Below, in pieces: positions 1 through 32,948 of a stretch of DNA of 32,948 nt (the stretch's first letter is position 1; the number at the start of each line of letters is the position of its first letter). The translations under genes and the position numbers were made by a program. Source of the stretch: an uncultured Oscillospiraceae bacterium. GTDB taxonomy: Bacteria; Bacillota; Clostridia; Oscillospirales; Oscillospiraceae. The DNA lies in the NCBI GenBank assembly GCA_944386995.1, contig CALXDF010000193.1:1-32948 (forward strand), read 5' to 3'. The notes beneath the pieces are model-generated. The model had not been told where the DNA came from. It saw only the letters and a list, made by a program, of their open reading frames with translations, and searched no databases.

Positions 1-1397
1 ACGCCAAGGCCCTGCCTCTGTACGGCCTGCGCCAGAACATCTTCACCGATCCTCAGAAGCCCATGAAGGTCACCCCGGGCATCTATCCCATCAACGGTGC
101 CGACGAGAACAGCCCCTGCTGCCTGACGGTGGACTTCGCCCTGACCTACTTCCTGGTGTCTGGCGAGCTGGAGCGCTCCAAGATGCCGGTGAACCTGCTG
201 ATCACCGACGCCTCCGGTATGTCCGTTCTGACCGCCTGGGCCGCCGGCAAGTTCTCCAGTTCCTCCGTGAAGAAGTTCATGGACGAGTTCGACATTGCCA
301 ACAAGATCAAGAGCCGCGCTCTGATCATCCCCGGCAAGGTTGCCGTGATGAAGGGCGAGATCCAGGACAAGCTGCCTGATTGGAGCGTCATTGTGGCCCC
401 CAACGAGGCGGTGCAGCTGGTGAAGTACATGCGTGACGAGGAGTGGAAGAAGAGCTATGTGGAGAAGGCTCCCGCCGCTGCCGGCGCTGCCGCTCCCGCT
501 GCCGAGGCTGCTCCCGCTCCCAAGAAGGTCATCCCCGCACCTCCCATTGTGGTCAATGGCCCCTACAAGCTGGATGATCAGGTGGTCACCTATAAGGGCC
601 ACGATCCCGCCAGCAAGAAGTTCGTGGTCATCGGCGAGCGGATCCACTGCATCTCCCCGGCCATCCGCAAGGCTATGGACACCTACGACGAGGGCCCCAT
701 CCTCAAGCGTGCCGCCGAGCAGATCGCTGCCGGTGCCACCTACCTGGATGTGAACATCGGGCCTGCTGAGAGCAATGGTCCCGAGCTGATGCAGTGGGCT
801 GTACAGCTGCTGCAGCAGAACTTCAACAACGTGCCTCTGGCTCTGGATACTGCCAACAAGGCCGCTATTGAGGCCGGCATCAAGGTCTATAACCGCACCA
901 ACGGCAAGCCCATCGTGAACAGCGCCGACGCCGGCAGCCGTATCGACAACATCAACCTGGCCGCCGCCAACGACGCCATTGTCATCGCTCTGTGCTCTGC
1001 CGACGGTATCGCTAAGGACAACGATGAGCGGATGCACCACTGCCACAACATGCTCGAGCGCGGCCTTGCCCTGGGCATGGAGGCCGACGACCTGTGGTTC
1101 GACCCCCTGTTCCTGGTGGTCAAGGGCATGCAGGACAAGCAGATGGACGTGCTCAACGCTATCAAGGCTTTCTCCGACGAGGGTCTGAAGAGCACCGGCG
1201 GTCTGTCCAACAACTCCAACGGTATGCCCAAGCATATCCGTCCCATCATGGACAGTGCCCTGGTTGCCATGTGCATGATGCAGGGTCTGACTTCCGCCAT
1301 TGTCAACCCCTGCGACCAGCGCCTGATGGAGACCATCAAGAGCTGCGACGTGTTCAAGAACAACACCCTGTACGCCGACTCCTACCTGGAGATCTGA
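1..1397 (+). CDS. acsC-acsE: AcsC C-terminal region fused to AcsE methyltransferase (5' truncated)
   Basis: One open frame runs from base 3 to the TGA at 1395-1397 without a break. Numbering from the in-frame ATG at 63, residues 1-135 match the C-terminal domain of the large (gamma) subunit of the corrinoid iron-sulfur protein (PGIYPINGADENSP, then LTAWAAGKF and RALIIPG). Residues 136-161 are an Ala/Pro-rich linker. Residues 187-444 are a complete pterin-binding TIM barrel of the methyl-THF:corrinoid methyltransferase type (VIGERI, YLDVNIGP with D229/N231, LALDTANK, WFDPL, LSNNSNGMP). AcsE moves the methyl group of methyl-THF to cobalt on AcsC/AcsD; the acetogen proteins I know are separate polypeptides. 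No ribosome site or start is evident at the AcsE boundary, so translation as a fusion is the simplest reading. The true start lies left of the window. Family calls are firm; the functional gain from fusion is inference. Confidence 0.9.
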   Translation, partial: AKALPLYGLRQNIFTDPQKPMKVTPGIYPINGADENSPCCLTVDFALTYFLVSGELERSKMPVNLLITDASGMSVLTAWAAGKFSSSSVKKFMDEFDIANKIKSRALIIPGKVAVMKGEIQDKLPDWSVIVAPNEAVQLVKYMRDEEWKKSYVEKAPAAAGAAAPAAEAAPAPKKVIPAPPIVVNGPYKLDDQVVTYKGHDPASKKFVVIGERIHCISPAIRKAMDTYDEGPILKRAAEQIAAGATYLDVNIGPAESNGPELMQWAVQLLQQNFNNVPLALDTANKAAIEAGIKVYNRTNGKPIVNSADAGSRIDNINLAAANDAIVIALCSADGIAKDNDERMHHCHNMLERGLALGMEADDLWFDPLFLVVKGMQDKQMDVLNAIKAFSDEGLKSTGGLSNNSNGMPKHIRPIMDSALVAMCMMQGLTSAIVNPCDQRLMETIKSCDVFKNNTLYADSYLEI

Positions 1398-1567: not shown

Positions 1568-3697
1568 ATGAGTGCATTGACTGATCTGATCTATGCCGGT
1601 TCCAACGCTGTCGCCGGTTTGACGGAGGGCGCCGTCAACGACGCCATCGCCAAATACGGCGCCGATACGCCGGTGGCTTTCCCTGATACCGCCTATTTCT
1701 TCCCCACGATTTACGCCGCTACCGGCGTGAAGGTGAAGACGCTGGGCGACCTGCCCGCCTGCGTGGGTGTCCTCAAGAGTCTTATCACCAATGAGGATGA
1801 CATTGGTAAAGCCCTGAACGCCGGACTCGCTACCGCTGTTGGCGCCGAGATCATTGAGGGGCTCAAGTATGTGAATGGTGCTCAGCCCTATGAAAACGAG
1901 TCCGGGATCGGCTTTGTCCCTGATCCTGTGATCCGCTCCCTGGGCGTCCCCCTGGTCACCGGGGATATCCCCGGTGTGGCTGTTGTCCTTGGCAAGGCCG
2001 ACAATGCCGAGGATGTTGCCAAAGTGGTCAAGGACTACCAGTCCAAGGGCATCATGACCTTTATGATCGGCGACTGCATCGAGCAGGCTGCCGAGCAGGG
2101 GGTAAAGATGGGCCTGGAGCTGCGCGTAGTTCCTCTGGGCCATGATGTCACCAGCGTGATCCATGTCGTTACCGTTGCCATCCGTGCGGCTCTGATCTTC
2201 GGCAATGTTCAGCCCGGCGATCTCTCCGGTCTGCTGACCTACACGAAAGATCGTGTCCCCGCCTTTGTCAACACCTTCGGTCCCCTGAATGAGGTTGTGG
2301 TCTCCGCCGGCGCCGGTGCCATTGCCCTGGGCTTCCCCGTGGTGGTGGATCAGGATATCGGCGATCTGCAGGTTCCCGGCGCCCTGGAGTACGAGGGCAA
2401 TTACGACGAGACCGTAAAGCGCTCCCTGGCCCTGCGCAACATCCACATCAAAGTAAAGGAGCTGCCCATTCCCGTGGCCTTTGCCGCCGCGTTCGAGGGC
2501 GAGATCGTCCGCAAGGCCGACATGAAGGTGGAGTTCTGGTCCAACAAGAATACCACCTGCGAGCTGGTCACCATGCGGGAGCCCGACCAGGTGGAAGATC
2601 ACAAGATCACCCTGGTGGGCCCGGACATCGACAGCGGCGAGACCGAGTACCCCATCGCTACCTACATCGAGGTGTCCGGCAGCAAGATGCAGAAGGACTT
2701 TGAGAGCGTTATCGAGCGGAAGATCCATGCCTGGTTCAACTACATGGAGGGTGTGATGCACACCGGCCAGCGCAACCAGATCCGCATCCGCATCAACAAG
2801 GACGCCTTTGACAAGGGCCTGCGTATGCACCATTTCGGTGAGGTCCTGTATTATATGATCATGGACGAGTTCGCCGCCGTGGTGGACAAGTGCCAGGTCA
2901 CCCTGGTCACAGATCCGGCGGAGGCCAAGCGCATTCTGGACGAGGAGGCCACTCCCGCCTACAACGCCCGCGATGACCGCCTGGCCAGCATGACCGATGA
3001 GAGTGTGGACCACTTCTACACCTGCACCCTGTGCCAGTCTTTCGCCCCCAGCCACGTCTGCGTGGTCACCCCCGAGCGTCTGGGCCTGTGCGGCGCCGTC
3101 TCCTGGCTGGATGCCAAGGCCACCAAGGAACTCAACGATGCCGGTCCCTCTCAGCCCATCAGCAAGGAGGGCTGCACCGATCCGGTGAAGGGCTACTATC
3201 CCGATGTGGACCGCATGGTCCACGAGGCCTCCCACGGCGCACTGGAGCACGTGAGCCTGTACTCCATCATGGAGGATCCCATGACCTCCTGCGGCTGCTT
3301 CGAGTGCATCTGCGGCATCGAGCCCATGAGCAACGGCGTTGTCATCGTCAACCGCGAGTATAACGGCATGACCCCCACAGGTATGACCTTCGGTGAACTT
3401 GCCAGTATGACCGGCGGCGGCGTCCAGACCCCGGGCTTCATGGGTCACGGCCGTCACTTCATCGCCTCCAAGAAGTTCATGTATGCGGAGGGAGGCCCCG
3501 CCCGTATTGTCTGGATGCCCAAGGAGCTGAAGGATGATGTGGCAGCCCGTCTGAACCAGACCGCCAAGGATCTGTACGGTATTGACAACTTTACCGATAT
3601 GATCGCCGACGAGACGGTGGCTGTCGACGCGGAGTCCCTGCTGAACTTCCTGACGGAGAAGGGTCATCCGGTGCTGAACATGGAGCCGCTGATGTAA
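1568..3697 (+). CDS. acsB: Acetyl-CoA synthase (CODH/ACS complex)
   Basis: 709 residues, close to the 729 of Moorella AcsB. The enzyme condenses CO, a methyl group from the corrinoid protein and CoA to acetyl-CoA in the cytoplasm. The A-cluster ligands are all present: C486, C489, C498 and C508 (C-x2-C-x8-C-x9-C) for the [4Fe-4S] cubane, and the Cys575-Gly576-Cys577 motif that binds the two nickel sites in the family. The spacing matches the Moorella positions with a constant offset of 20. Start ATG at 1568 is set by AAAGGAGG 7-8 bases upstream. It lies 170 bp after acsC-acsE, with a strong hairpin between, so it may be partly independently transcribed. The N-terminal CODH-contacting domain seems slightly shorter than in Moorella. 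The CO dehydrogenase partner (AcsA/CooS) is not in the window. Confidence 0.96.
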   Translation: MSALTDLIYAGSNAVAGLTEGAVNDAIAKYGADTPVAFPDTAYFFPTIYAATGVKVKTLGDLPACVGVLKSLITNEDDIGKALNAGLATAVGAEIIEGLKYVNGAQPYENESGIGFVPDPVIRSLGVPLVTGDIPGVAVVLGKADNAEDVAKVVKDYQSKGIMTFMIGDCIEQAAEQGVKMGLELRVVPLGHDVTSVIHVVTVAIRAALIFGNVQPGDLSGLLTYTKDRVPAFVNTFGPLNEVVVSAGAGAIALGFPVVVDQDIGDLQVPGALEYEGNYDETVKRSLALRNIHIKVKELPIPVAFAAAFEGEIVRKADMKVEFWSNKNTTCELVTMREPDQVEDHKITLVGPDIDSGETEYPIATYIEVSGSKMQKDFESVIERKIHAWFNYMEGVMHTGQRNQIRIRINKDAFDKGLRMHHFGEVLYYMIMDEFAAVVDKCQVTLVTDPAEAKRILDEEATPAYNARDDRLASMTDESVDHFYTCTLCQSFAPSHVCVVTPERLGLCGAVSWLDAKATKELNDAGPSQPISKEGCTDPVKGYYPDVDRMVHEASHGALEHVSLYSIMEDPMTSCGCFECICGIEPMSNGVVIVNREYNGMTPTGMTFGELASMTGGGVQTPGFMGHGRHFIASKKFMYAEGGPARIVWMPKELKDDVAARLNQTAKDLYGIDNFTDMIADETVAVDAESLLNFLTEKGHPVLNMEPLM

Positions 3698-3737
3698 ACA
3701 GGAGATCCCATCCATCGCATCAGCTTATGAAGGAAAG

Positions 3738-3764
3738 AGGGGCGGCCCCGCTGGGGCCGCCCCT
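3738..3764 (+). terminator. GC-rich hairpin after acsB
   Basis: Perfect 12-bp stem (3738-3749 with 3753-3764), 3-nt loop, 40 bp after the acsB stop. No real T run follows, so termination efficiency is uncertain. Confidence 0.5.
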
Positions 3765-3816
3765 TCCGCTTTCCCGCATAGAAATGCTTATAAAATTTCG
3801 GAAAGGAGGAATCCCA

Positions 3817-4185
3817 TTGCCCATCGCCCTGCGCAATATGAATGGCACGGACATTGCTATTCTTACCGGCCCCGGAAAACAAATTATCGACGCCAAGTCT
3901 GCACTGGATCTGGCCATAACGGTGAAATATGAAACTGGTGCGGCCAAAATTGCCATAGACAAGGAAGCCATCACTGACGAATTTTTCATTCTGAGCTCCG
4001 GTTTAGCCGGCGAGATCCTGCAAAAATTTGTCAATTACCAGATCCAAGCTGCAATCTACGGGGACTTCAGCCGCTATACCAGCAAGCCGCTGCGGGACTT
4101 TATCCGGGAGTCCAACCGCAGCGGGCAGTTCTTTTTTGTCCCAACACAGGAGGACGCCATCTCCGCTCTGCTGCGTTGTCAATAA
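3817..4185 (+). CDS. DUF4180 domain protein
   Basis: 122 residues from a TTG start at 3817. The start is chosen because AAAGGAGGA (3802-3810) sits 6 bases before it; the longer frame from ATG 3727 would begin inside the upstream hairpin. The sequence matches the DUF4180 pattern as I remember it: IIDAKSALDLAITVKYETG, then KEAITDEFFILSSGLAGEILQKF, and GDFSRYTSKPLRDFIRESN near the end. No catalytic function is established for this family to my knowledge; it is small, soluble, and has no signal peptide or membrane segment. It lies between acsB and acsV, so a role connected with the CODH/ACS system is possible but rests on position alone. Confidence 0.8.
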   Translation: MPIALRNMNGTDIAILTGPGKQIIDAKSALDLAITVKYETGAAKIAIDKEAITDEFFILSSGLAGEILQKFVNYQIQAAIYGDFSRYTSKPLRDFIRESNRSGQFFFVPTQEDAISALLRCQ

Positions 4186-4270: not shown

Positions 4271-4285
4271 ATAAAATGAAAATTT

Positions 4286-4311
4286 GGCGGGTTTCGCCCG
4301 AAATTCCCGCC
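4286..4311 (+). other. Hairpin in the acsV leader
   Basis: GGCGGGTTTC (4286-4295) pairs with GAAA and CCCGCC (4300-4311) across a 2-nt bulge, loop of four. It would start about ten bases into the acsV transcript and ends before the ribosome site GAAAGGA at 4321-4327. No T run follows, so it looks like a 5' stabiliser or protein site rather than a terminator. Confidence 0.4.
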
Positions 4312-4335
4312 TTTGACGGGGAAAGGATAAAAAAT

Positions 4336-6273
4336 ATGTTTACGATCACCTTCGTGTTAGAGGGCGCGGCGCCGGTCACCATTGACGCCAACGCCAACGA
4401 GAATCTGCTGGATGTGGCCCGAAAGGCCAATGTGGCTATCGACGCCCCCTGCTCCGGCAACGGAGCCTGCGGCAAATGCCGGGTACGGCTGGCCGAGGGC
4501 TATCTGGACTCCCCTCAGAACCGCCATATCACCAGCGAGGAATATGAGGCTGGCTGGCGGCTGGCCTGCTGCAGCAAGGTGGTTGGCGACGCCACCATCG
4601 AGGTCCCTGATATTGCCTCTGCCTACCGCAGCCGCATGAAAATCGCAGATCTGGATTCTCCGGAGGAGATCGCTATCTTTGATAATCTGCGCCAGCAGAT
4701 GCTGGAGGCAGGCTTTGCCTTCCAGAGCGACCTGAGCTTCCTGCCCCTGGAGCTCAGCGAGCCCACCCTGGATGACACTATGCCGGATAACGAGCGTGTT
4801 ATCCGCGCAGTGGAGAAAGCCACAGGGTGCCCCTATGAAAATATTATCATGCCCTACTCCGTACTGCGGGATCTGAGCTGGGTGCTGCGGGAGAGCGAGT
4901 GGCATGTGAAATGCGTCATCTCCCGGGATGGGGACCGCATCCACATCCGGGACGTCCTGCCATCAGAAAACACGGATCCCATTGTGGGCTTTGCCCTGGA
5001 CCTTGGCACCACCTCCCTGGCCGGCCTTCTGGTGGATCTGCAGAGCGGAAAGATTTTGGCCAAGGCCAGCTGCGGCAACGGCCAGATCCGCTACGGGGCC
5101 GACGTTATCAACCGCATCATTGAGTCGGAGAAGCGGGGCGGCCGCCGCCGCCTCCAGGATGCGGTGGTCAAGGAGTCCATTATCCCCATGCTGGTACAGA
5201 TGTACCAGAGCGCCAATATCAACCCCAGGCGCATCTACCGGATGGTCCTGGCCGGCAACACCACCATGAACCACCTGCTGCTGGGCCTCTACTCCGATCC
5301 GGTGCGCATGGAGCCCTTCGTCCCCAGTTTCTTCCGTACCAATTATATTTATGTCCGGGACATTGGATTGAAGATGAACCCCCTGGCAGAGTTGGTAGTC
5401 GCCCCCAACATTGGCAGTTATGTGGGCGGAGACATCACCGCCGGCGCCTTCGCCTCCATGATCTGGAACAGCCCGGAGATGAGCTTGTTCATCGACCTTG
5501 GCACCAATGGCGAGCTGGTCTTTGGCAATAATGAGTTCCTCATGTCCTGTGCCTGCTCCGCCGGTCCTGCCTTTGAGGGCGGCGACATCTCCTGCGGCAT
5601 GCGGGCAACCGACGGCGCCATCGAGGCGTGCACCATTGACAAGGAGACGATGGAGCCCACCCTTACCGTCATCGGCGGCGGAGCCCCGGTGGGGATTTGC
5701 GGCAGCGGTATCATCGACATCATCGCGGAACTCTTCCGCTGCGGCATTATCAACGGCAAGGGCAAGCTGGTCCGTGAGGGCAAACGTGTCCTCCACGATG
5801 AGCACGGCATGGGTTCCTTTGTTCTGGCCTTCCAGTCCGAGACCGGCGGGGCCAAGGATGTGGTTATCAACGAGGTGGACATCGATAACTTCATCCGTGC
5901 CAAAGGCGCCATCTTCTCCGCCACCACCACCATGCTTCACTCTCTTGGCTTCGACCCCTCGGTTATCGAGCGGGTCTATGTGGCCGGCGGCATCGGCAGC
6001 GGCATCAACATGAAGAACGCCGTCACCATCGGCATGTTCCCGGACATCTCTCTGGACCACTTCCACTATATCGGCAACTCCTCTCAGACCGGGGCTTACG
6101 CCATGCTTCTCAGTCAGGGTGCCCGTGAGAAGGTGGATGAACTGAGCCGCAGCATGACCTACCTGGAACTGAGCAACGAGCCTCAGTATATGGACAACTT
6201 CGTTGCCTCCTGCTTCCTGCCCCACACGGATGCCTCCCTCTTCCCCTCTGTTCAGGAGGAGTTGGGCCTGTAA
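4336..6273 (+). CDS. acsV: Corrinoid protein reductive activator (RACo)
   Basis: 645 residues from ATG 4336 (GAAAGGA 8 bases upstream; an earlier in-frame ATG at 4276 falls on the transcription start). RACo uses ATP and a low-potential electron to return the inactive Co(II) corrinoid protein to Co(I). The N-terminus is a [2Fe-2S] ferredoxin domain with C-SGNGA-C-GK-C and a fourth Cys in LACC. A linker and middle domain follow, then a C-terminal ASKHA-fold (DUF4445) ATPase region with ALDLGTTSLAGLLVD, FIDLGTNGELV and a VAGGIGSG adenosine motif. Length agrees with the known RACo of Carboxydothermus (about 630). It sits directly after acsB and DUF4180 and acts on the AcsC/AcsD protein, whose AcsC part is encoded at the left edge. 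Some ASKHA ferredoxin proteins reactivate other corrinoid proteins; the acs context makes AcsV by far the best call. Confidence 0.93.
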   Translation: MFTITFVLEGAAPVTIDANANENLLDVARKANVAIDAPCSGNGACGKCRVRLAEGYLDSPQNRHITSEEYEAGWRLACCSKVVGDATIEVPDIASAYRSRMKIADLDSPEEIAIFDNLRQQMLEAGFAFQSDLSFLPLELSEPTLDDTMPDNERVIRAVEKATGCPYENIIMPYSVLRDLSWVLRESEWHVKCVISRDGDRIHIRDVLPSENTDPIVGFALDLGTTSLAGLLVDLQSGKILAKASCGNGQIRYGADVINRIIESEKRGGRRRLQDAVVKESIIPMLVQMYQSANINPRRIYRMVLAGNTTMNHLLLGLYSDPVRMEPFVPSFFRTNYIYVRDIGLKMNPLAELVVAPNIGSYVGGDITAGAFASMIWNSPEMSLFIDLGTNGELVFGNNEFLMSCACSAGPAFEGGDISCGMRATDGAIEACTIDKETMEPTLTVIGGGAPVGICGSGIIDIIAELFRCGIINGKGKLVREGKRVLHDEHGMGSFVLAFQSETGGAKDVVINEVDIDNFIRAKGAIFSATTTMLHSLGFDPSVIERVYVAGGIGSGINMKNAVTIGMFPDISLDHFHYIGNSSQTGAYAMLLSQGAREKVDELSRSMTYLELSNEPQYMDNFVASCFLPHTDASLFPSVQEELGL

Positions 6274-6348: not shown

Positions 6349-6966
6349 ATGGAACCCATTTACGGCAAAAACAACAAAGAAGAACTTCCCCTGGAATACT
6401 ATCTGGCAAAATTCAGGGAGGGTGACCCCCATGAGATGGCAGAGCGCTGCGCCCTGCCTTTCGACGGGAAGCGCTTTACAATTCACCTGCTGGGGGATCT
6501 CTTTATGCTCTCCCATCCGGACTATGCGATCCAGGGTGACCGGGAACCCACGAACCCTGAGCGCATCCTCTTCCTGCGCTATCTGTTGGATGGGAGATGC
6601 ACGCCGCCCACCGGCACTTTCCGCACCTATCGGGAGTTCCCCTGGGGGGAGGTCTACCTCCAGCAGTTCACCGGCCGGTGCATCAAGCGCTTTGCCTTTT
6701 CCTACAATGCCAAGCCCGACCTGCTGCGCCGCATCATGGAGCATCTGCCCGCCCATCCTGTAAAAATGGGCGACATCGGCTATGAACTGGAGCTGATGGA
6801 CGGACTCTTCATGCAGCTGATCCTGTGGCTGGGAGACGATGAGTTCCCTCCCAACGCACAGATTCTCTTCTCCGAGAATTTCCGGGACGCTTTCACCGCC
6901 GAGGATATGGCCAACATTGGGGATATTGTCCTCAACCGCATGAAGGTCATCGGCGCCAGCCTGTAA
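6349..6966 (+). CDS. DUF3786 domain protein
   Basis: 205 residues, soluble, no signal peptide. It resembles DUF3786 proteins (LPLEYYLAKFREGDPHEMAERC at the start, RILFLRYLL, FRTYREFPWGEVY, then GDIGYELELMDGLFMQLILWLGDDEFPPNAQILFSENF). Function unknown. From memory, members turn up near corrinoid and Wood-Ljungdahl genes in anaerobes, which fits its place directly after acsV. Start ATG 6349 has a modest site, CGAGGT, 5-10 bases upstream. It is 75 bp from acsV with a terminator-like structure in between and is followed by a strong terminator, so it is the last gene of the acs block. A helper role in corrinoid activation is inference from position only. Confidence 0.8.
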   Translation: MEPIYGKNNKEELPLEYYLAKFREGDPHEMAERCALPFDGKRFTIHLLGDLFMLSHPDYAIQGDREPTNPERILFLRYLLDGRCTPPTGTFRTYREFPWGEVYLQQFTGRCIKRFAFSYNAKPDLLRRIMEHLPAHPVKMGDIGYELELMDGLFMQLILWLGDDEFPPNAQILFSENFRDAFTAEDMANIGDIVLNRMKVIGASL

Positions 6967-7297: not shown

Positions 7298-7441
7298 GTT
7301 GCCCCTTGGCAGCAAAGGCTGCATCCGATCCGCCGGGGGCTGGCGTCTTGCGCCGCCGCCTTGTGCAGTAGCTTCAATGCACTTTATCTCCTAAAAACAG
7401 CCCCGCCTGCGGCGGGCAAATCAAAAAAGGAGGAGACGCAT
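7298..7441 (+). other. folT leader downstream of the riboswitch terminator
   Basis: No ORF with a ribosome site. It contains a small CAGC/GCTG hairpin, a second copy of GCATCCG (7321-7327) like that in the aptamer, a 6-bp CCCGCC/GGCGGG hairpin (7402-7416), and the folT ribosome site AAAAAAGGAGGAG just before the ATG. Confidence 0.5.
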
Positions 7442-8029
7442 ATGAAGCGTAACCAACACAGCATCCTGAACACCCGCTCTCTGGTAATGATGGCCCTTTT
7501 GGTGGCCATCCAGATCATCCTGGCCCGGTACCTCTCCATCCAGAGCGAGACCTTCCGCATCAGCTTTGAGACGATTCCTCTGGCTCTGGCCGGTATGTGG
7601 CTTGGCCCCCTGGCGGGCGTCATTGTTGCCCTGGTGGCAGACATCCTCGGCACCGTTCTCTCCGGCATCGGTCTCTATTTTCCGCCCTTATCCCTTGGAC
7701 CCATGGTGTTTGCTTTTCTCTGCGGCATCGGCGGCAAATATGTACGCCAGGTCCAGCGGCCCCTGCTCAGTCAGGTCCTGATGATCCTTCTGGTGGTTGT
7801 AGCCGGAATCATCAACAGCTTTTTGGTGGGCGTTGCCACTTTCGTGTGGTACCAGATTGCAGTCATGGGCACAGAGGGTTCCTTCTGGAGTCTGGCGGCG
7901 ATCAATTTTACCAGTCGGCTGGCTACCAAGCCCCTGACCATTGTTGTCAGCGCGCTGCTGGTCTATGCCATCAACCGGGCGGCCTATCGTCCGGTCATCT
8001 CCCGGATCATGTCCCGGCACCGGGCATAA
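7442..8029 (+). CDS. folT: Folate ECF transporter S component
   Basis: 195 residues, about six membrane segments, of the ECF S-component type. It binds folate in the membrane and works with a shared energising module (EcfA, EcfA', EcfT), which is not encoded here. The N-terminal region (RSLVMMALLVAIQIILARYLSIQ) and IPLALAGMWLGPLAGVIVALVADILG are typical of the FolT group; length fits the family. Start ATG 7442 is set by AAAGGAGGAG; a longer frame from 7361 lacks a ribosome site and runs through the leader. The upstream THF riboswitch strongly supports folate as substrate. folC follows after 45 bp, so import and polyglutamylation appear co-transcribed and co-regulated. Confidence 0.92.
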   Translation: MKRNQHSILNTRSLVMMALLVAIQIILARYLSIQSETFRISFETIPLALAGMWLGPLAGVIVALVADILGTVLSGIGLYFPPLSLGPMVFAFLCGIGGKYVRQVQRPLLSQVLMILLVVVAGIINSFLVGVATFVWYQIAVMGTEGSFWSLAAINFTSRLATKPLTIVVSALLVYAINRAAYRPVISRIMSRHRA

Positions 8030-8074
8030 AGTCCCCCGCTGCCGCAATTTTTTGAAAGAAATCAGGTAATTGAC

Positions 8075-9337
8075 ATGAACTACAGCGAAGCCCTGTCCTA
8101 TATCCACAGCATCAACTGGCAGTGGAGCAAGCCCGGCCTCAGCCGCACCCAGGAACTGCTGGAAAAGCTGGGCAACCCGGAAAAAAGTTTGAAATTCATC
8201 CATATCGCCGGTACCAATGGCAAAGGCTCTACCGCCTCCATGCTCGCCTCCATTCTGGAGGCGGCCGGCTACACCGTGGGACTCTATACTTCCCCCTACA
8301 TCAACCGCTTCAATGAGCGCATGCAGGTCAACCACCAGTGCATTGGCGACGAGGAGCTGGCCGAACTCACCGACTATGTCCGCCCCCACGCCGACAGCAT
8401 GACCGACGCGCCCACGGAATTTGAGCTCATCACTGCCATCGGCATGGAATATTTCAAGCGCCACCAGTGCGACATTGTTGTGCTGGAGGTAGGCATGGGC
8501 GGCGCTCTGGACTCCACTAACGTGATCGACACTCCGGAGGTAGCCATTATCACCGCCATGGGCTATGACCACACGCAGGTGCTGGGCAGCACCATGACGG
8601 AGATCGCCTCTGCCAAGGCCGGCATCATCAAGCCAAACGGCAATGTGGTGGTTTATGGGCAGAACCCGGAAGCGGAGGCCGTCTTTGAAAAGGTGGCGGC
8701 GGAACAGCACAGCGCCCTTTTCCGGCCGGATTACAGCCAGCTGATTCCCGGCGATTTCAACCTGGATGGTCAATCTTTCTCCTATAAGGAGTGGAAAGAC
8801 CTGCGGATCCCCCTGGTGGGACTCTATCAGCTCAACAATGCCGCTGTGGTGCTCACAGCGGTAGACGTTCTGCGGCAGAGAGGCTGGGAGATCTCCGATG
8901 ATGCAGTCCGCAGCGGGCTGCGCAATACCCGCTGGCCCGCCCGGTTCGAGGTCCTCCACCGGAATCCCGTGTTCATTGTGGACGGCGGCCACAATCCCCA
9001 CGGCATCCGGGCCACCGCCGAGAGCCTCCAGCGGATCTTCCCGGGGCAGAAGTTTGTATTTGTCACCGGCGTATTAGCCGACAAGGACGTGGAGCACATT
9101 CTGGGCCTCATCGTCCCCCTGGCCCGCCGGTTCTACGCGGTCACGCCCCCCAATCCCCGGGCCATGCAGGCTGATGTATTGGCTCAGCGCATCCGCGCCA
9201 TGGGAGCCGATGCGGTTCCCTGTGATACCATTCCCCAGGCGGTGCAGTCCGCCATGGACTTTGCCGGCCCGGAAGGCGTGGCCTGCGCCCTGGGCTCCCT
9301 CTACATGAGTGGAGATGTTCGCAACTGCTTTCAATAA
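8075..9337 (+). CDS. folC: Folylpolyglutamate / dihydrofolate synthase
   Basis: 420 residues, the normal FolC length. It adds glutamates to reduced folates, retaining them in the cell and tuning them for folate enzymes; many homologues also join dihydropteroate to glutamate. It is a Mur-ligase family ATPase: P-loop [10 protein letters not shown] near residue 43, [22 protein letters not shown], the hinge [13 protein letters not shown], and the C-terminal [11 protein letters not shown]. The ribosome site is weak (AGGT about ten bases before the ATG), so coupling to folT is possible. A strong terminator follows. Whether dihydrofolate synthase activity is retained cannot be judged from the sequence. 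Confidence 0.95.
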
Positions 9338-9347
9338 ATCTCCCCAG

Positions 9348-9379
9348 AGCGAGCTGCTTTCCTAAAGCAGCTCGCTTTT
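9348..9379 (+). terminator. Intrinsic terminator after folC
   Basis: Perfect 12-13-bp stem (core 9349-9360 with 9364-9375), 3-nt loop, then TTTT. Eleven bases after the folC stop. Confidence 0.85.
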
Positions 9380-9418
9380 GTGCACAAATTTTTGTCAGGT
9401 TTTTTGTATCTTCTAGCA

Positions 9419-9447
9419 TTGCGCTCTACGCAACAGTTTGTTATAAT
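9419..9447 (+). promoter_or_regulatory. Extended -10 promoter for fhs
   Basis: Perfect TATAAT (9442-9447) preceded by TG at 9439-9440 (extended -10). The -35 TTGCGC (9419-9424) is weak but correctly placed at 17 bp. Start near 9454. Confidence 0.75.
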
Positions 9448-9454
9448 CTTAACG

Positions 9455-9597
9455 AACAGTGGGGCTCAGACGGACCACCCACGTTTTCCTGTCAAATAGG
9501 CCATGGCAGGACGGATTTTCCCGATATTAATTTGTCCCTGTGGCCGGGACCAGAGCGATCCAGCAGGACACTGGGACGCAGAAAGGAACGACGAACC
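9455..9597 (+). other. Long untranslated leader of fhs
   Basis: About 143 nt between the predicted start and the fhs ATG. It holds short inverted repeats (GTCCC/GGGAC around 9535-9550; CAGGAC near 9500 with GTCCCTG near 9535) but no terminator and no riboswitch class that I can recognise. An in-frame ATG at 9532 has no ribosome site. Confidence 0.4.
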
Positions 9598-11274
9598 ATG
9601 AGCAACTTCAAATCCGACATTGAAATCGCCCAGGCGACCCCGATGCAGCATATCACCGAGGTTGCCAAAACTGCCGGCATCGACCCCAAGTATCTGGAGC
9701 AGTACGGCAACTACAAAGCCAAGGTGGACTACAACATTCTCAACGAGACGCCGGAGCGCTCCGGCAAGCTGATCCTGGTGACGGCCATTAACCCTACCCC
9801 CGCCGGCGAAGGAAAGACCACCACCACCGTGGGGCTGGCTGACGGTATGAAGCGGCTGGGCAAAAATGTTCTGGTTGCTCTGCGTGAACCCTCCCTGGGA
9901 CCGGTATTCGGCGTGAAAGGCGGCGCCGCCGGCGGCGGCTATGCCCAGGTAGTGCCTATGGAAGACATCAACCTCCACTTCACCGGTGACTTCCATGCCA
10001 TCGGCGCTGCCAACAACCTGCTGGCCGCTATGTTGGATAACCACATCTACCAGGGCAACAAGCTCAATATCGATCCCCGCCGCATCACCTGGCGCCGCTG
10101 TGTGGATATGAACGACCGGCAGCTCCGCTTCGTGGTAGACGGTCTGGGCGGCCGGGTCAATGGTACGCCCCGCGAGGACGGCTACGATATCACCGTGGCC
10201 AGCGAGATCATGGCTGTGCTGTGCCTGGCCAGCGACATCTCTGATCTGAAGGCACGTCTGAGCCGTCTGGTGGTTGGCTACACCTACGATGAAAAGCCTG
10301 TTACTGCCGGTGATCTCCACGCCGCCGGCGCCATGGCCGCTCTGCTGAAGGACGCGCTGAAGCCCAACCTGGTACAAACGCTGGAGCATACGCCTGCCTT
10401 TGTTCACGGCGGCCCCTTCGCCAACATTGCCCACGGCTGCAACAGCGTTACGGCTACCAAGATCGCCCTGCGCCTGAGCGATTATACCGTTACCGAGGCC
10501 GGTTTCGGTGCAGATCTGGGCGCTGAGAAGTTCCTGGACATCAAGTGCCGTATGGCTGGCCTCAAGCCCAGCGCCGTGGTTATCGTGGCGACTGTCCGCG
10601 CCCTCAAATACAATGGCGGCGTGCCCAAGAATGAACTGAGCCAGGAGAATCTTGCCGCTCTGGAAAAGGGCCTGCCCAATCTGCTCAAGCACGTGAGCAA
10701 CATCACTAACGTCTACAAGCTGCCCTGCGTGGTGGCCATCAACCGCTTCCCCTTCGATACCGAGGCCGAACTGAAGCTGGTCGAGGACAAATGTAAGGAG
10801 TTGGGCGTCAACGTGGCCCTCAGCGAGGTGTGGGCCAAGGGCGGCGAGGGCGGTATCGCCCTGGCGCAGGAGGTCATCCGTCTGTGCGAGCAGCCCAATG
10901 ACTTCTCCTTCTCTTATGATCTGAACATGTCCATTGAGGACAAGATTACCGCCATCGTTCAGAAGATCTATGGCGGCAAGGATGTAGCCTTTACCTCCAA
11001 CGCCCAGAAGCAGATCCAGCAGCTCACGGCTCTGGGCTATGACAAGATGCCCATCTGCATGGCCAAGACCCAGTACAGCCTCAGTGACGATCCCACCAAG
11101 CTGGGCGCACCCACAGGCTTTACTGTCACCGTGCGCAACATCAAGGTATCTGCTGGTGCCGGCTTCCTGGTAGCCCTTACCGGTGACATCATGACCATGC
11201 CGGGCCTGCCCAAGGTGCCTGCTGCCGAGCGCATCGACGTGGATGCTACCGGCAAGATCTCCGGCCTGTTCTAA
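9598..11274 (+). CDS. fhs: Formate--tetrahydrofolate ligase
   Basis: 558 residues, standard for the family. It makes 10-formyl-THF from formate, ATP and THF, the entry step of the methyl branch of the Wood-Ljungdahl pathway. The N-terminal domain carries the ATP loop [17 protein letters not shown]; further family blocks include [46 protein letters not shown] and [13 protein letters not shown]. The C-terminus has [23 protein letters not shown] and [11 protein letters not shown]. Start ATG 9598 follows GAAAGGA; starting at 9532 would add an unrelated basic tail. It has its own promoter and long leader. fchA and folD, the next two steps, follow after one small unknown gene. Confidence 0.97.
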
Positions 11275-11336
11275 GATGCGGAGTTCCATCAAGGGCTGTG
11301 GCGCATGATCCCAGTCCGCTCCCCTGTCCCTTGCGC

Positions 11337-11370
11337 AAGGGGCCGGCGGCTCACCGCCGCCGGCCCCTTT
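11337..11370 (+). terminator. GC-rich hairpin after fhs
   Basis: Perfect 13-bp stem (11337-11349 with 11357-11369), extendable by one pair, short loop. Only three T follow. Likely a partial terminator that lowers expression of the downstream genes relative to fhs. Confidence 0.5.
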
Positions 11371-11400
11371 CCACGGCTGCTCTCCAAAGGAGGATCCCTA

Positions 11401-11736
11401 ATGCCCGCTCCCGTATGTTGTGCCATTCTGCCTGCTGCGTCCGCACTCCGCCGCGGGGCGTCCCTGAATGTCCTGCTGGTCATGGAAAGCGCGGCTGCAT
11501 GCACTGCTCCGGTTCGCTTTTGGGGCAACGACGGCAGCGGCTGGCGAAAACTGCTGGAGGAAATGCGGGTGTTTCCCGCGGAGGAGCATGTCCATCTCTA
11601 TTTTACCCTGCCCGCCAGCTGCTTCCTCGCCCCATTCTGGGACGGCAGCGCGCCGGAGGAGGTTTCCCTGGCCGTAGGCGACTGCCCGCCAAAGGCAACG
11701 GACGCTGGTGTCCTCATCTTTGTAGAGGACCGATGA
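11401..11736 (+). CDS. Hypothetical protein between fhs and fchA
   Basis: 111 residues from ATG 11401, placed by a strong AAAGGAGGA site. I do not recognise the family. It is soluble-looking, rich in Ala, Cys (five) and aromatic residues, with no clear membrane segment; the N-terminus (CCAILPAASALRRG) is mildly hydrophobic but not a convincing signal. The C-terminal half (VHLYFTLPASCFLAPFWDG, then GVLIFVED) looks like alternating beta strands. It is 126 bp from fhs, 38 bp before fchA, and on the same strand, so it appears to belong to the C1 unit. The good ribosome site and placement argue for a real gene; it could also be a decayed remnant. Confidence 0.6.
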   Translation: MPAPVCCAILPAASALRRGASLNVLLVMESAAACTAPVRFWGNDGSGWRKLLEEMRVFPAEEHVHLYFTLPASCFLAPFWDGSAPEEVSLAVGDCPPKATDAGVLIFVEDR

Positions 11737-11774
11737 CCAAACAGACAACCTAACAAATAAGGAGAATGACTTTT

Positions 11775-12401
11775 ATGGATTTTGCACAAGCCAGTTGTAC
11801 AGAATTTGTCACTGTTCTGGCCTCCAACGCCCCAGTGCCCGGCGGCGGCGGCGCTTCCGCCCTGGTGGGTGCTATCGGCACAGCTCTGGGCAATATGGTG
11901 GGTTCCCTCACCGTCGGCAAGAAGAAATACGCCGATGTGGAGGAGGAAATGGTGGCCCTGAAAGCCAGATGTGATGCCATCCAGGCCGATCTTCTGGCCC
12001 TGATTGCCAAAGACGCAGAGGTTTTTGCCCCCCTGGCCAAGGCCTATGGACTGCCCAAGGAGACAGAGGAGGAAAAAGCTTACAAGGCCAAGGTCCTGGA
12101 GGAGTGTACGGTGGCCGCCTGCTCTGTACCCATGGAGATCATGGAGAAGTGCTGCGAGGCCATCGAGGCGATTGCCCAGTTCGCTGCCAAGGGCAGCCGT
12201 TTGGCCGTGTCTGACGCCGGATGCGGTGCCGCCTGCTGCAAAGCAGCGCTCCAGAGCGCCAGTCTCAACGTGTTCATTAATACCAAATCCATGCAGAACC
12301 GGGCAGTCGCTGAGTCCCTTAATGCCAAAGCCAACGCCATGCTGGACAAATATTGCCCCATGGCTGATGAAATTTTTGCCCAGGTCCGGGCGAACTTCTG
12401 A
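11775..12401 (+). CDS. fchA: Methenyl-THF cyclohydrolase (cyclodeaminase family)
   Basis: 208 residues of the FTCD_C (formiminotransferase-cyclodeaminase) fold. FchA interconverts 10-formyl-THF and 5,10-methenyl-THF, the second step of the methyl branch. The glycine-rich loop NAPVPGGGGASALVGAIGTALG and the SLTVGKKKYADVEEEM block near the N-terminus are characteristic. ATG 11775 is preferred over ATG 11766 because AAGGAG (11759-11764) lies ten bases before it and only one base before the other. folD starts 50 bp downstream. The cyclodeaminase family also acts on formimino-THF; the fhs-fchA-folD context favours cyclohydrolase, and the folD here seems to lack that activity. Confidence 0.9.
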   Translation: MDFAQASCTEFVTVLASNAPVPGGGGASALVGAIGTALGNMVGSLTVGKKKYADVEEEMVALKARCDAIQADLLALIAKDAEVFAPLAKAYGLPKETEEEKAYKAKVLEECTVAACSVPMEIMEKCCEAIEAIAQFAAKGSRLAVSDAGCGAACCKAALQSASLNVFINTKSMQNRAVAESLNAKANAMLDKYCPMADEIFAQVRANF

Positions 12402-12451
12402 TTGCCGCCCGTGCGGCAGATTGACTGATAAGAAAAGGAGCGAATCCAACC

Positions 12452-13306
12452 ATGGCAACGATCTGGAAGGGCGCAGAGGTCAATACCGGCCTGAACGCCC
12501 GCATTATGAAAGATGTGGAAGCTTTGAAGGCCCGGGGTATCACGCCGACCCTGGCCATCGTCCGGGTAGGCGAGCGGCCAGACGACCTCAGTTACGAGCG
12601 GGGCGCTATCAAGCGGGCGGAATCCCTGGGCGTGGCGGTGGCCAAATGCGCCCTGCCGGTGGACGTAACCCAGGAGGTACTGCTCCAAGTCATCCGGGAT
12701 ATTAATGCCGACTCAAAGATCCACGGCGTGCTTCTGTTCCGTCCTCTCCCCAAGCATCTGGACGAGGCGCTGATCTGCAATACGCTGGTGCCGGAAAAAG
12801 ATATCGACGGCATTACTGAGCTGTCCCTGGCCGGTGTTTTTGCCGGGAAGCCGCTGGGCTTTGCCCCCTGTACGCCGTCGGCCTGCATGGAAATTCTGGA
12901 CCACTACGGAATCGACTGCACCGGCAAAAGAGCGGTGGTCATTGGCCGGAGCCTGGTGGTTGGGAAGCCTGCCGCCATGATGCTTATCAAGAAAAATGCT
13001 ACCGTGACGGTCTGCCACACCCGCACGGCGGATCTGCCCGCCGTCTGCCGGGAGGCGGATATCCTCATTGCCGCCGCCGGCAAGGCCGGCATGGTGGGCG
13101 CGGACTTCGTCCGCCCCGGCCAGATTGTCGTTGATGTGGGGATCAACTGGAATGAGCAGGAGCAGAAGCTCTGCGGCGATGTGGACTTTGAGGCCGTCTC
13201 CCCCATTGTGGAGGCCATTACCCCTGTTCCCGGCGGCGTTGGAACCGTCACCACCTCTGTTTTGGTCGGGCATGTGGTGGAAGCGGCCAAGCGCACGCTA
13301 GCGTAA
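12452..13306 (+). CDS. folD: Methylene-THF dehydrogenase (FolD lacking cyclohydrolase residues)
   Basis: 284 residues, normal FolD length. Family blocks are clear: VRVGERPDD, DKDIDG-like EKDIDGITELS, GFAPCTPSACMEIL, the Rossmann segment KRAVVIGRSLVVGKPAAMML, and ITPVPGGVGTVT. Aligning without gaps to E. coli FolD (Y50 with Y48 here, G62 with G60), the catalytic Lys54 becomes Ala52 and Gln98 becomes Phe96, while Asp121 is kept as Asp119. Lys54 and Gln98 are needed for the cyclohydrolase step in characterised enzymes, whereas dehydrogenase activity can survive loss of the lysine. The simplest reading is a dehydrogenase-only FolD paired with FchA next door. Start ATG 12452 follows AAAAGGAGCG. 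It ends 14 bp before the formate channel gene. Confidence 0.93.
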   Translation: MATIWKGAEVNTGLNARIMKDVEALKARGITPTLAIVRVGERPDDLSYERGAIKRAESLGVAVAKCALPVDVTQEVLLQVIRDINADSKIHGVLLFRPLPKHLDEALICNTLVPEKDIDGITELSLAGVFAGKPLGFAPCTPSACMEILDHYGIDCTGKRAVVIGRSLVVGKPAAMMLIKKNATVTVCHTRTADLPAVCREADILIAAAGKAGMVGADFVRPGQIVVDVGINWNEQEQKLCGDVDFEAVSPIVEAITPVPGGVGTVTTSVLVGHVVEAAKRTLA

Positions 13307-13320
13307 AGGGGGCGGTATTG

Positions 13321-14142
13321 ATGAATCTCTTTACCGCTGCGGAAGCCGCTGCCAACTATTCCACCGCCGGCGCCGGCAAAACCAAGCTGCCCATTCCAAA
13401 GATGATGCTGCTGGCCATCCTGGCCGGCATCCTCATCGCCTTTCCCGGAGCTGTCACCAACATGGCTACCTATGCCCTGGACAACAACAGCACGGTGCGC
13501 ATGATCTCCGGCCTGCTGTTCGCCTTTGGCCTGGGGATGGTGATCCTCTCCGGTGCGGAGCTGTTTACCGGTAATACCCTGATCACCATCAGCGTACTGG
13601 ACAAAAAAGCAAAACTGACCGGACTGCTGCGCAACTGGGTGTTCGTGTACATCGGCAACTTCATCGGCTCCCTGATCGTAGCCTTTATCTGCGCCAAATT
13701 CGGCTGGGTGGGTGCCGGTGAAGGCGCCCTGGCCGTATTCTCCATGAAAGTAGCTGTCGGGAAGATGACCATGCCCTTCCAGAATGCGTTCTTTATGGGA
13801 GTCCTGTGCAACATTCTGGTGACCCTGGGCGTGCTGTTCTCCCTGTCTGCCAAAGACGTAGCCGGCCGAATCCTGGGTGCCTATACCCCGGTGGCTTTCT
13901 TCGTCATCTGCGGTTTCAATCACTCTATCGCCGATATGTTTTACTGCACCGTTGGGCTCTTTTCCAGGGCGCAGTATGCGGCCCAGGCCGCTGAGGCCGG
14001 TATTGCCGTGGAGAGCCTCACTTGGGGCAACTACTTCCTGGGCAACATGCTGCCGGTGACCCTGGGCAACATTGTAGGCGGTATCTGCGTGGGATTCCTG
14101 TTCTGGTTCTGCTGGCTCCGCGGTTCCAAGAAAAAGGGATGA
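13321..14142 (+). CDS. Formate/nitrite channel (FNT family)
   Basis: 273 residues with six predicted membrane segments, typical of FocA/FdhC/NirC pentameric channels. The loop motif GAELFTGNTLI and the CNILVTLGVLFS segment are family signatures. The central-histidine motif, usually GFEHxxANM, reads GFNHSIADMF here: the histidine is kept but Glu is Asn and Asn is Asp. Start ATG 13321 is preferred over the adjoining TTG at 13318, with AAAGGGGGCGG upstream. It closes the fhs-fchA-folD run, so formate import for Fhs, or export of excess, is the likely job. Nitrite or another small anion cannot be excluded. Confidence 0.9.
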   Translation: MNLFTAAEAAANYSTAGAGKTKLPIPKMMLLAILAGILIAFPGAVTNMATYALDNNSTVRMISGLLFAFGLGMVILSGAELFTGNTLITISVLDKKAKLTGLLRNWVFVYIGNFIGSLIVAFICAKFGWVGAGEGALAVFSMKVAVGKMTMPFQNAFFMGVLCNILVTLGVLFSLSAKDVAGRILGAYTPVAFFVICGFNHSIADMFYCTVGLFSRAQYAAQAAEAGIAVESLTWGNYFLGNMLPVTLGNIVGGICVGFLFWFCWLRGSKKKG

Positions 14143-31563: not shown

Positions 31564-32948
31564 ATGAGAGGAATTCCCTCATCTGTCACTGACATCCGCA
31601 AGCGGGTTTTTACCGAAGTTGCCCGCATGGCTTATGATGGGGACTACAGCCGTATGGAAGAACTGCCCTATCGGATTGTTCCGGGCACGGAGGCTCGGTA
31701 CCGGGAATCCATCTTCCTGGAGCGGGCCATTGCCGGGGAGCGGGTCCGCCTGGCTATGGGGCTTCCCCTGCGGCCGGTGGATCAGCACACCGTCCTCAGC
31801 AAGGGCGTCAGCGAGAGCGCCATTGCCGAGAAATATTATGATCCCCCTCTTATCAATATCATCGACTTTGCCTGCCACTCCTGCCCCACCAAGCAGTACC
31901 GGGTCACCGAATACTGTCAGGGCTGTCTGGCCCAGTCCTGCCACCAGGTCTGCCCCAAGGACGCCATTCGCTTTGTCAACGGCAAGAGCTACATCAAGCA
32001 GGATATCTGCATCAAGTGCGGACGCTGTGCCGAGGCCTGCCAGTACAACGCCATCATCAAGCTGGAGCGCCCCTGCGAAAAGGCCTGCGGCATGAACGCC
32101 ATCAGCCCCGGCGAGCACGGCCGGGCCAAAATCGATCAGAATAAATGTGTCTCCTGCGGCATGTGTCTGGTAAGCTGTCCCTTCGGCGCCATCGTGGACA
32201 AGGGACAGATCTTCCAGCTCATCCACGCCATCAAGCGGGGCGACCGGGTGGTGGCCATTGTGGCCCCCGCTTTCCTGGGGCAGTTCGGCCCCGCGGCCAC
32301 ACCGGAGCGCCTGACCCCCGCCCTCAAGCGCCTGGGCTTTGCCGGCGTGGCGGAGGTGGCGGTGGGCGCGGACCTCTGTACTATCGAAGAGGCCATTGAC
32401 TTCCTGGATGAGGTTCCGGAAAAGCACCCCTTCCTGGCGACCTCCTGCTGCCCGGCCTGGTCGGTCATGGCTAAAAAGCTTTTCCCGGAGTTTGCCGACT
32501 GCATCTCCATGGCCCGGACACCCATGGTCCTCACCGCCCGGCTCCAGAAATACAAGGACCCGGGCTGCCGGATCTGTTTTATCGGCCCCTGCGCAGCCAA
32601 AAAGCTGGAGGCCAGCCGCCGCTCTATCCGCAGCGACGTTGATTTTGTTCTGACCTTCGAGGAACTCCAGGGCATGTTCGAGGCCAAGGGGGTCCGCTTT
32701 GAGGATATCCCCAAGGAGGAGGAAGTGCCCCTCACCGAGGCTACCGGTGCAGGCCGCGGCTTTGCCGTTACCGGCGGCGTGGCCAAAGCTGTGGTGGGTG
32801 CTATTGCCCGCATGGAACCGGAGCGCGAGGTCAATGTGGTCAGCGCAGAGGGGCTGGACAACTGCCGCAAGATGCTGCAGCTGGCCAAGGCCGGCAAGTA
32901 CAACGGCTACCTTCTGGAGGGCATGGCCTGTCCCGGCGGCTGCGTCGC
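31564..32948 (+). CDS. [FeFe]-hydrogenase-like iron-sulfur protein (3' truncated)
   Basis: 461 residues are visible and the frame is open at the window end. The N-terminal half is a cysteine-rich ferredoxin region (CHSCPTKQY, YCQGCLAQSCHQVCP, CIKCGRCAEAC, CVSCGMCLVSCPFGAI) able to hold several [4Fe-4S] clusters. The C-terminal half carries the H-cluster motifs: ATSCCPAW (Cys295-Cys296), IGPCAAKK (Cys343) and EGMACPGGC (Cys456, Cys460). These correspond to TSCCPGW, MPCxxK and EVMACxGGC of characterised HydA, with Gly to Ala in the first and Met to Gly in the second. The variants suggest the monomeric group B type rather than the classic HydA1. It probably exchanges electrons between ferredoxin and protons, but H2 chemistry is not proven for this branch. 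ATG 31564 follows AAAGGAG. Confidence 0.85.
   Translation, partial: MRGIPSSVTDIRKRVFTEVARMAYDGDYSRMEELPYRIVPGTEARYRESIFLERAIAGERVRLAMGLPLRPVDQHTVLSKGVSESAIAEKYYDPPLINIIDFACHSCPTKQYRVTEYCQGCLAQSCHQVCPKDAIRFVNGKSYIKQDICIKCGRCAEACQYNAIIKLERPCEKACGMNAISPGEHGRAKIDQNKCVSCGMCLVSCPFGAIVDKGQIFQLIHAIKRGDRVVAIVAPAFLGQFGPAATPERLTPALKRLGFAGVAEVAVGADLCTIEEAIDFLDEVPEKHPFLATSCCPAWSVMAKKLFPEFADCISMARTPMVLTARLQKYKDPGCRICFIGPCAAKKLEASRRSIRSDVDFVLTFEELQGMFEAKGVRFEDIPKEEEVPLTEATGAGRGFAVTGGVAKAVVGAIARMEPEREVNVVSAEGLDNCRKMLQLAKAGKYNGYLLEGMACPGGCV

Follow-up and report, generated by a model that had tools for sequence, protein, structure and literature searches.

AcsC, the large subunit of the corrinoid/iron-sulfur protein (CFeSP), and the methyltransferase AcsE are encoded, both in full, by one reading frame in an uncultured Oscillospiraceae bacterium. 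The gene reaches into the start of the window, by which we mean the whole 32,948-nucleotide stretch of DNA analysed, where bases 3-1397 form a single stop-free frame of 464 residues with an open 5' end. Profiles for both enzymes match this frame, which bears out the original prediction of an uninterrupted AcsC-AcsE fusion. Comparison of related sequences indicates that the fusion is kept across 13 genera of a family sample with a connector of near-constant length and constrained sequence, and with the catalytic motifs retained.

Structure of the fused gene and its neighbourhood

Within the window's frame, residues 1-146 are the corrinoid-binding end of AcsC, residues 147-204 a connector and residues 205-464 a complete AcsE. 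Pfam matches CdhD at residues 2-141 (E 2.4e-38) and Pterin_bind at residues 233-435 (E 8.6e-20). The NCBIfam model of the CODH/ACS methyltransferase subunit (NF040758) covers residues 205-464 with 471.7 bits (cut-off 370), and the AcsC model (NF003195) covers residues 2-146 with 199.3 bits, below its cut-off of 306; AcsC is truncated here by the contig end. The rest of a full AcsC, expected to the left of the window, was found in frame on contig C75 of the same genome. This contig terminates in the first 331 residues of AcsC with acsD directly upstream, and it shares its final 105 bases exactly with the start of the window, with the same frame continuing. The closest complete copy (L006/L035) has 761 residues and is 98% identical over the window's stretch. 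Three of three full-length fused relatives tested score 499.9-525.4 bits against the AcsC profile (cut-off 306) and 466.3-473.6 bits against the AcsE profile (cut-off 370). In the fused genomes of the family sample no further match reached E 1e-50; in one genome (G009) the fused gene is divided between two contigs.

Residues needed by both enzymes are conserved. Four N-terminal cysteines of AcsC (C17, C20, C25 and C42), which we take to be the ligands of the [4Fe-4S] cluster, are invariant in 55 aligned fused proteins, and all four are present in the AcsC start on C75. The AcsE motifs LDT, FDP and GLSN are retained in 27 of 27 fused representatives, and with them the pterin-site residues, which are the Asp of LDT, the Asp of DPL and the Asn of GLSN.

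Features of the fused gene and of neighbouring genes, with positions in the window
Feature	Position	Strand	Evidence
AcsC C-terminal corrinoid-binding part (CFeSP large subunit)	3..440	+	Pfam CdhD, NF003195, C75 overlap, alignment to PDB CFeSP chains 9fzy_F and 4djd_C
Corrin-loop signature DASGMSVLTAWA of the fused clade	207..242	+	83/83 non-duplicate fused loci, 0/57 unfused
58-residue inter-enzyme connector, 14 Ala and 9 Pro	441..614	+	Separate tblastn of AcsC tail and AcsE core
Ala/Pro-rich connector middle, 26 residues (156-181)	468..545	+	Sequence; type seen in the window's clade
Complete AcsE, methyl-THF:corrinoid/iron-sulfur protein methyltransferase, including stop codon	615..1397	+	NF040758; PDB 1f6y, 2e7f and 2yci chains
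acsB, acetyl-CoA synthase, next operon gene	1568..3697	+	NF040764, 1019.8 bits, cut-off 800
acsV, corrinoid activation/regeneration protein	4276..6273	+	NF040756, 944.6 bits, cut-off 800
Formate-THF ligase, first of the methyl-branch genes	9532..11274	+	NCBIfam over cut-off
fchA	11766-12401		NCBIfam FchA, 185.6 bits, below cut-off 275
folD	12452-13306		NCBIfam FolD, best 283.7, below cut-off 421

Related loci show the order cooC-acsD-acsCE-acsB-acsV again for as much of the operon as they contain, with a few rearrangements. Two CdhC (acsB) matches were seen in 15 of the 22 genomes tested; in the window's genome one copy lies beside acsCE and the other on a CODH-carrying contig (G000:C110:4973-5434). 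A DUF4180 gene stands between acsB and acsV (3727-4185). It may have been inserted locally, since tblastn at E 1e-15 found no relative of it in 82 related loci, although many of these loci do not extend far. Downstream of acsV is a DUF3786 gene (6349-6966), present in 35 of the 82 related loci, many of which end before that point. Its product is possibly a partner of corrinoid activation. Positions 7361-14142 carry a row of genes for a folate ECF transporter component, FolC, formate-THF ligase, FchA, FolD and a formate/nitrite transporter, and an iron-only hydrogenase is encoded at 31564-32946, the end of the window. The transporter, the methyl-branch genes and the hydrogenase are consistent with a formate-importing pathway.

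The fused protein resembles several known systems and differs from each. Its likeness to the separate CFeSP (AcsC/AcsD) and methyltransferase systems is extensive: residues 1-441 of the AcsC part in a fused relative align with CFeSP chains such as those of Moorella thermoacetica (4DJD) and Clostridium autoethanogenum (9FZY), the AcsE part aligns over its full length with chains such as 1f6y and 2e7f, and the operon neighbours acsD, acsB and acsV are the same. It departs from them in being one protein with a connector of 52-62 residues (39 once) and in having Ser and Met in the corrin-loop motif. MetH also tethers a methyl-THF-binding TIM barrel and a corrinoid domain in one chain, and the AcsE part matches the MetH pterin domain. 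However, the fused protein scores 89.7 bits against TIGR02082 (cut-off 1010.85), its module order is reversed, with the corrinoid domain first, and its CFeSP-type corrinoid fold is unlike that of MetH as described in an excerpt of PMC13331322. Pfam found no homocysteine domain (S-methyl_trans) in the window's 464 residues, and in relatives the N-terminal 297 residues match AcsC throughout. HgcA and HgcAB-like fusions share a CFeSP-type corrinoid domain and give weak matches (NF043039 and NF040863), but the scores of 44.6 and 36.6 fall far under the cut-offs of 285 and 275. The fusion partner in HgcAB-like proteins is a ferredoxin rather than a methyltransferase.

Distribution and origin of the fusion

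A GTDB scan with one genome per species provided the best 80 of at least 588 relatives, picked by similarity to the fused query, so that their number is not a frequency. All 80 of these loci are fused and in frame, with stop-free connectors of 52-62 residues, and the hidden stop or frameshift at the connector that was raised as a concern in the original prediction was found in none of them. They include Candidatus Faecousia (5), Avoscillospira, Limimonas and Pseudoflavonifractor sp. MSJ-30 (L082), going by the record titles; the last of these appears from its title to be a cultured isolate. When the architecture was mapped onto taxa as had been suggested, 76 of 250 genomes sampled from the family had an AcsC or AcsE match; 27 of the 76 are fused (13 genera), 48 are unfused, including 4 with only one gene seen, and 1 is undecided at a contig end. 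These counts were made by hand, with frames re-read for 27 of 27 fused and 37 of 48 unfused genomes; of the 11 other unfused calls, 6 have acsC and acsE on different contigs, 4 show a single gene and 1 is an adjacent pair.

Wider searches gave matches in 17 of 345 genomes of the order, 39 of 391 of the class and 125 of 398 of the phylum. No fusion was seen outside the family in these samples; all fused genomes found belong to the window's family. A stop separates the two genes in all 37 outside genomes in which both were read on one locus (20 + 17). Open-frame lengths had suggested further fusions of 709-809 aa; in L020, however, the genes proved to be separated by a TAA, a ribosome-binding site and an ATG, and frames were re-read for this reason. 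The expectation that the partners are separate in related systems agrees with the 61 unfused loci read (57 after duplicate removal). The fused loci number 114, of which 83 are non-duplicate in the motif count and 92 in the Shine-Dalgarno count given below, for which different duplicate keys were used.

Phylogenetic trees were built from representatives, with short and near-identical rows left out, and comprise 97 of 175 loci for AcsC and the joined alignment (49 of these in the p-AU tests) and 50 for AcsE. The AcsE tree places the 29 fused rows in one clade (100/99), recovered in 100% of 200 bootstrap trees although the bootstrap had not fully settled, and places an unfused genome, G104, as sister to the whole fused clade (99/96). 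In the AcsC and joined trees the fused proteins form two groups, with G104 beside the window's clade, so that two changes are needed. The AcsC data do not reject a single fused clade (p-AU 0.145), a tree holding fused proteins and G104 together fits better than the free tree (p-AU 0.828), and placing G104 next to the window's clade is compatible with the AcsE data (p-AU 0.235). The fused AcsE therefore probably reflects a single origin of the fusion. One event that included the AcsC part is suggested by the shared and derived corrin-loop change, and is also favored by the AcsE tree; a later split in G104, or two independent fusions, may instead have occurred.

As the nearest unfused relative of the fused clade, G104 (L211, G104:C3, 5790-7977) has an 88-base gap between the acsC and acsE cores, in which a terminator-like inverted repeat was judged by eye. 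The arrangement may represent the state before fusion. At the two diagnostic corrin-loop positions, G104 has G and L.

Connector and corrin loop

The original prediction described a 26-residue Ala/Pro-rich tether. Such a stretch exists, at residues 156-181, and it is only the middle of a connector of 58 residues. Nor does AcsE start near residue 187, as had been proposed: judged by separate relatives, most of which begin with M-x-K-F at that point, the core begins near residue 205. The comparison to flexible linkers of lipoyl proteins did not hold for the fused proteins at large, since an Ala/Pro-rich middle is, among the loci compared, specific to the window's clade. Connectors of other fused loci are mostly rich in Ala, Glu and Lys, followed by a more conserved segment that often ends in Y-K-x-x-N-P-E-S. 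Length is better kept than sequence, which drifts widely; a length of 56-59 residues is shared by 77 of the 85 distinct connectors, and the range is 52-62 apart from 39 in genome G085.

The dN/dS over the first 42 connector residues is 0.23 and 0.21 in two groups (9 and 8 sequences), as compared with 0.18-0.20 for AcsC and 0.09-0.11 for AcsE. Over the last 18 residues (18 codons) the two groups differ, with 0.61 for the window's clade and 0.08 for Faecousia-type genes. Because dN/dS is near 0.2 over the first 42 residues in both groups, these ratios indicate that the connector is selected as protein, with weaker constraint on its final part in the window's clade.

A change in the corrin loop accompanies the fusion. 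DASGMSVLT is present in 83 of 83 non-duplicate fused loci (full signature DASGMSVLTAWA) and in none of 57 non-duplicate unfused loci, where the pattern is DAGG[YLM]SVLT[AS]WA and the position after DAGG is Y (53), L (3) or M (1). SVLT itself is retained in all 83, and the two variable positions ahead of it are Ser and Met. Among 37 further loci scanned from the order, class and phylum samples, 19 have a corrin-loop pattern (15 DAGGY, 2 DAGGL, 1 DCEGL and 1 DTDGT) and none of these 19 has DASG; the other 18, some with AcsE only, gave no match. An excerpt of PMC13331322 names a threonine as the side chain closest to cobalt, numbered Thr378 in Moorella and Thr375 in C. autoethanogenum. In our alignments the Thr of SVLT is residue 375 in Moorella and residue 378 in C. 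autoethanogenum, and the two organisms seem to be exchanged in the legend. On our reading of the alignments, the cobalt-nearest threonine is that of the SVLT motif. The motif counts indicate that the corrinoid site is altered along with the fusion.

Proposed mechanism, rival explanations and metabolic role

We consider it probable that the gene yields a single AcsC-connector-AcsE chain of about 761 residues, that this chain partners AcsD, and that the tether keeps the mobile B12 domain beside its methyl donor. The N-terminus of AcsE lies at the bottom of the TIM barrel. The connector would have to pass round that barrel, a constraint that would account for its length (mostly 56-59 residues) being kept better than its sequence. 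If AcsE keeps its usual homodimer, two CFeSP units would be permanently attached per particle. According to an excerpt of PMC12289521, contacts with both the methyltransferase and ACS are handled by a mobile element, the corrinoid domain that closes the AcsC chain. The connector would extend from the end of this domain. After swinging to the active site of AcsE and picking up the methyl group of methyl-THF, the domain would move out to ACS, while AcsE would never diffuse away. Docking would become intramolecular, with a fixed 1:1 stoichiometry and a millimolar effective concentration; a chain model estimates 2.7-9.8 mM at contact and 0.8-1.0 mM at 5 nm for connectors of 52-62 residues. CFeSP and AcsE of separate systems work without a tether, so any gain from one is putative.

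The main rival, to which we attach a rather low probability, is that a single loss of a stop codon joined two tightly linked operon genes and the connector is a spacer without advantage, the fusion persisting since a return to two genes requires several simultaneous changes. In 59 of the 61 unfused loci read, 16-185 bases lie between the AcsC and AcsE cores, so the step would have been easy, and both the likely single origin and the wide drift of the connector sequence fit such a history. A spacer of this kind does not readily account for a dN/dS of about 0.2 over most of the connector, its near-constant length or the shared corrin-loop change, and 44 fused representatives show no secondary split, if G104 is the pre-fusion state. 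That the frame gives two proteins after all, because translation starts or a protease cuts within the connector, is very improbable. A Shine-Dalgarno match of at least 5 bases precedes AcsE in 44 of 57 unfused loci versus 9 of 92 fused loci, the remaining 83 fused loci having none, and the window has no in-frame start with a match above 3 bases at bases 440-660. Some Faecousia-type genes do have, 36-42 bases ahead of the AcsE core, a Met (in DMG) with a weak Shine-Dalgarno-like stretch, and ATGs near the core (n=65) more often have a match of at least 4 bases (31%) or at least 5 bases (8%) than 2486 internal ATGs elsewhere (13% and 2%), but the DMG Met is missing from the window's clade. The window does begin at a contig end in a fragmented genome (222 contigs), as an assembly or sequencing artefact might; the chance of one is negligible, and it was rejected given the in-frame overlap with C75 and the same frame in 80 of 80 loci (the best 80 of at least 588) from many assemblies, that of Pseudoflavonifractor sp. 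MSJ-30 among them.

It is also unlikely, somewhat more so than a neutral history, that the fusion serves mainly methionine synthesis, or a methyl acceptor other than ACS, at least in part of the clade. The case for it begins with genome G085 (99% complete), which has metF, acsD and acsCE in a row (L213, G085:C17, 2362-6401) and no CODH or AcsB match. Its fused gene is diverged, with the shortest connector (39 residues) and a long branch in the tree. Neither a MetE-type domain nor a MetH-type B12-binding_2 domain was found in G085, and its single homocysteine methyltransferase domain lies in a frame of 295 aa (289 aa from its Met). The fused protein of G085 may thus serve methionine synthesis. 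More broadly, a MetE-type catalytic domain occurs in 0 of 18 genomes tested, the homocysteine methyltransferase domain (PF02574) is confined to short frames of 291-375 aa in 11 of the same 18, and the MetH-type B12-binding_2 domain is missing in 6 of 22. CFeSP has been proposed elsewhere as a methyl donor for methionine (MesB, in an excerpt of PMC7857596), and it may have that role in genomes of the fused clade. Set against this are the CODH matches in 21 of 22 genomes tested (19 over the cut-off; 21 of the 22 are fused), the AcsB matches in 20 of the 22 and the position of acsB directly after the fused gene in the window. A MetH-length frame is present in 7 of 18 genomes, and the homocysteine methyltransferase domain also occurs in 17 of 18 unfused relatives (frames of 276-538 aa), so the short homocysteine methyltransferases are not a consequence of the fusion. 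Enzymes of this short type may use S-methylmethionine.

In a broader and still doubtful proposal, Ser and Met in the corrin loop retune the corrinoid site and the fused protein delivers methyl groups as a machine complete in itself. It would no longer serve ACS alone but also feed a stand-alone homocysteine methyltransferase, and in genomes such as G085, which lack CODH and ACS, it would feed nothing else. If true, this would be a split methionine synthase with its folate and corrinoid halves taken from the Wood-Ljungdahl pathway.

The fusion, with tethered methyl delivery as our preferred reading, bears on how these bacteria are counted as acetogens. No published description of an AcsC-AcsE fusion was found among the matches listed in the open-licence PubMed Central literature, and one may exist elsewhere. 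Excerpts of PMC11338639 report that acsE escaped detection in 78% of CODH/ACS genomes of gut Oscillospirales (7 of 9 genera) and that acsCD were among the genes present in >88% of all CODH/ACS genomes, with genes called by KEGG orthology numbers and Faecousia making up 282 of the 411 Oscillospirales CODH genomes. All five named Faecousia loci among the best 80 of at least 588 relatives are fused, and the AcsC profile outscores the AcsE profile in three of three fused proteins tested. A survey that gives one label per gene would miss AcsE, because the fused protein scores higher against AcsC; for these two reasons the missing acsE, so far as those excerpts describe it, is most simply and probably the second half of the fused gene. 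The criteria stated in an excerpt of PMC12449052 require acsE for calling acetogens, and surveys of that kind could undercount this group. As a natural tether between CFeSP and its methyltransferase, the fused protein allows a direct test of whether partner docking limits the methyl branch of the Wood-Ljungdahl pathway.
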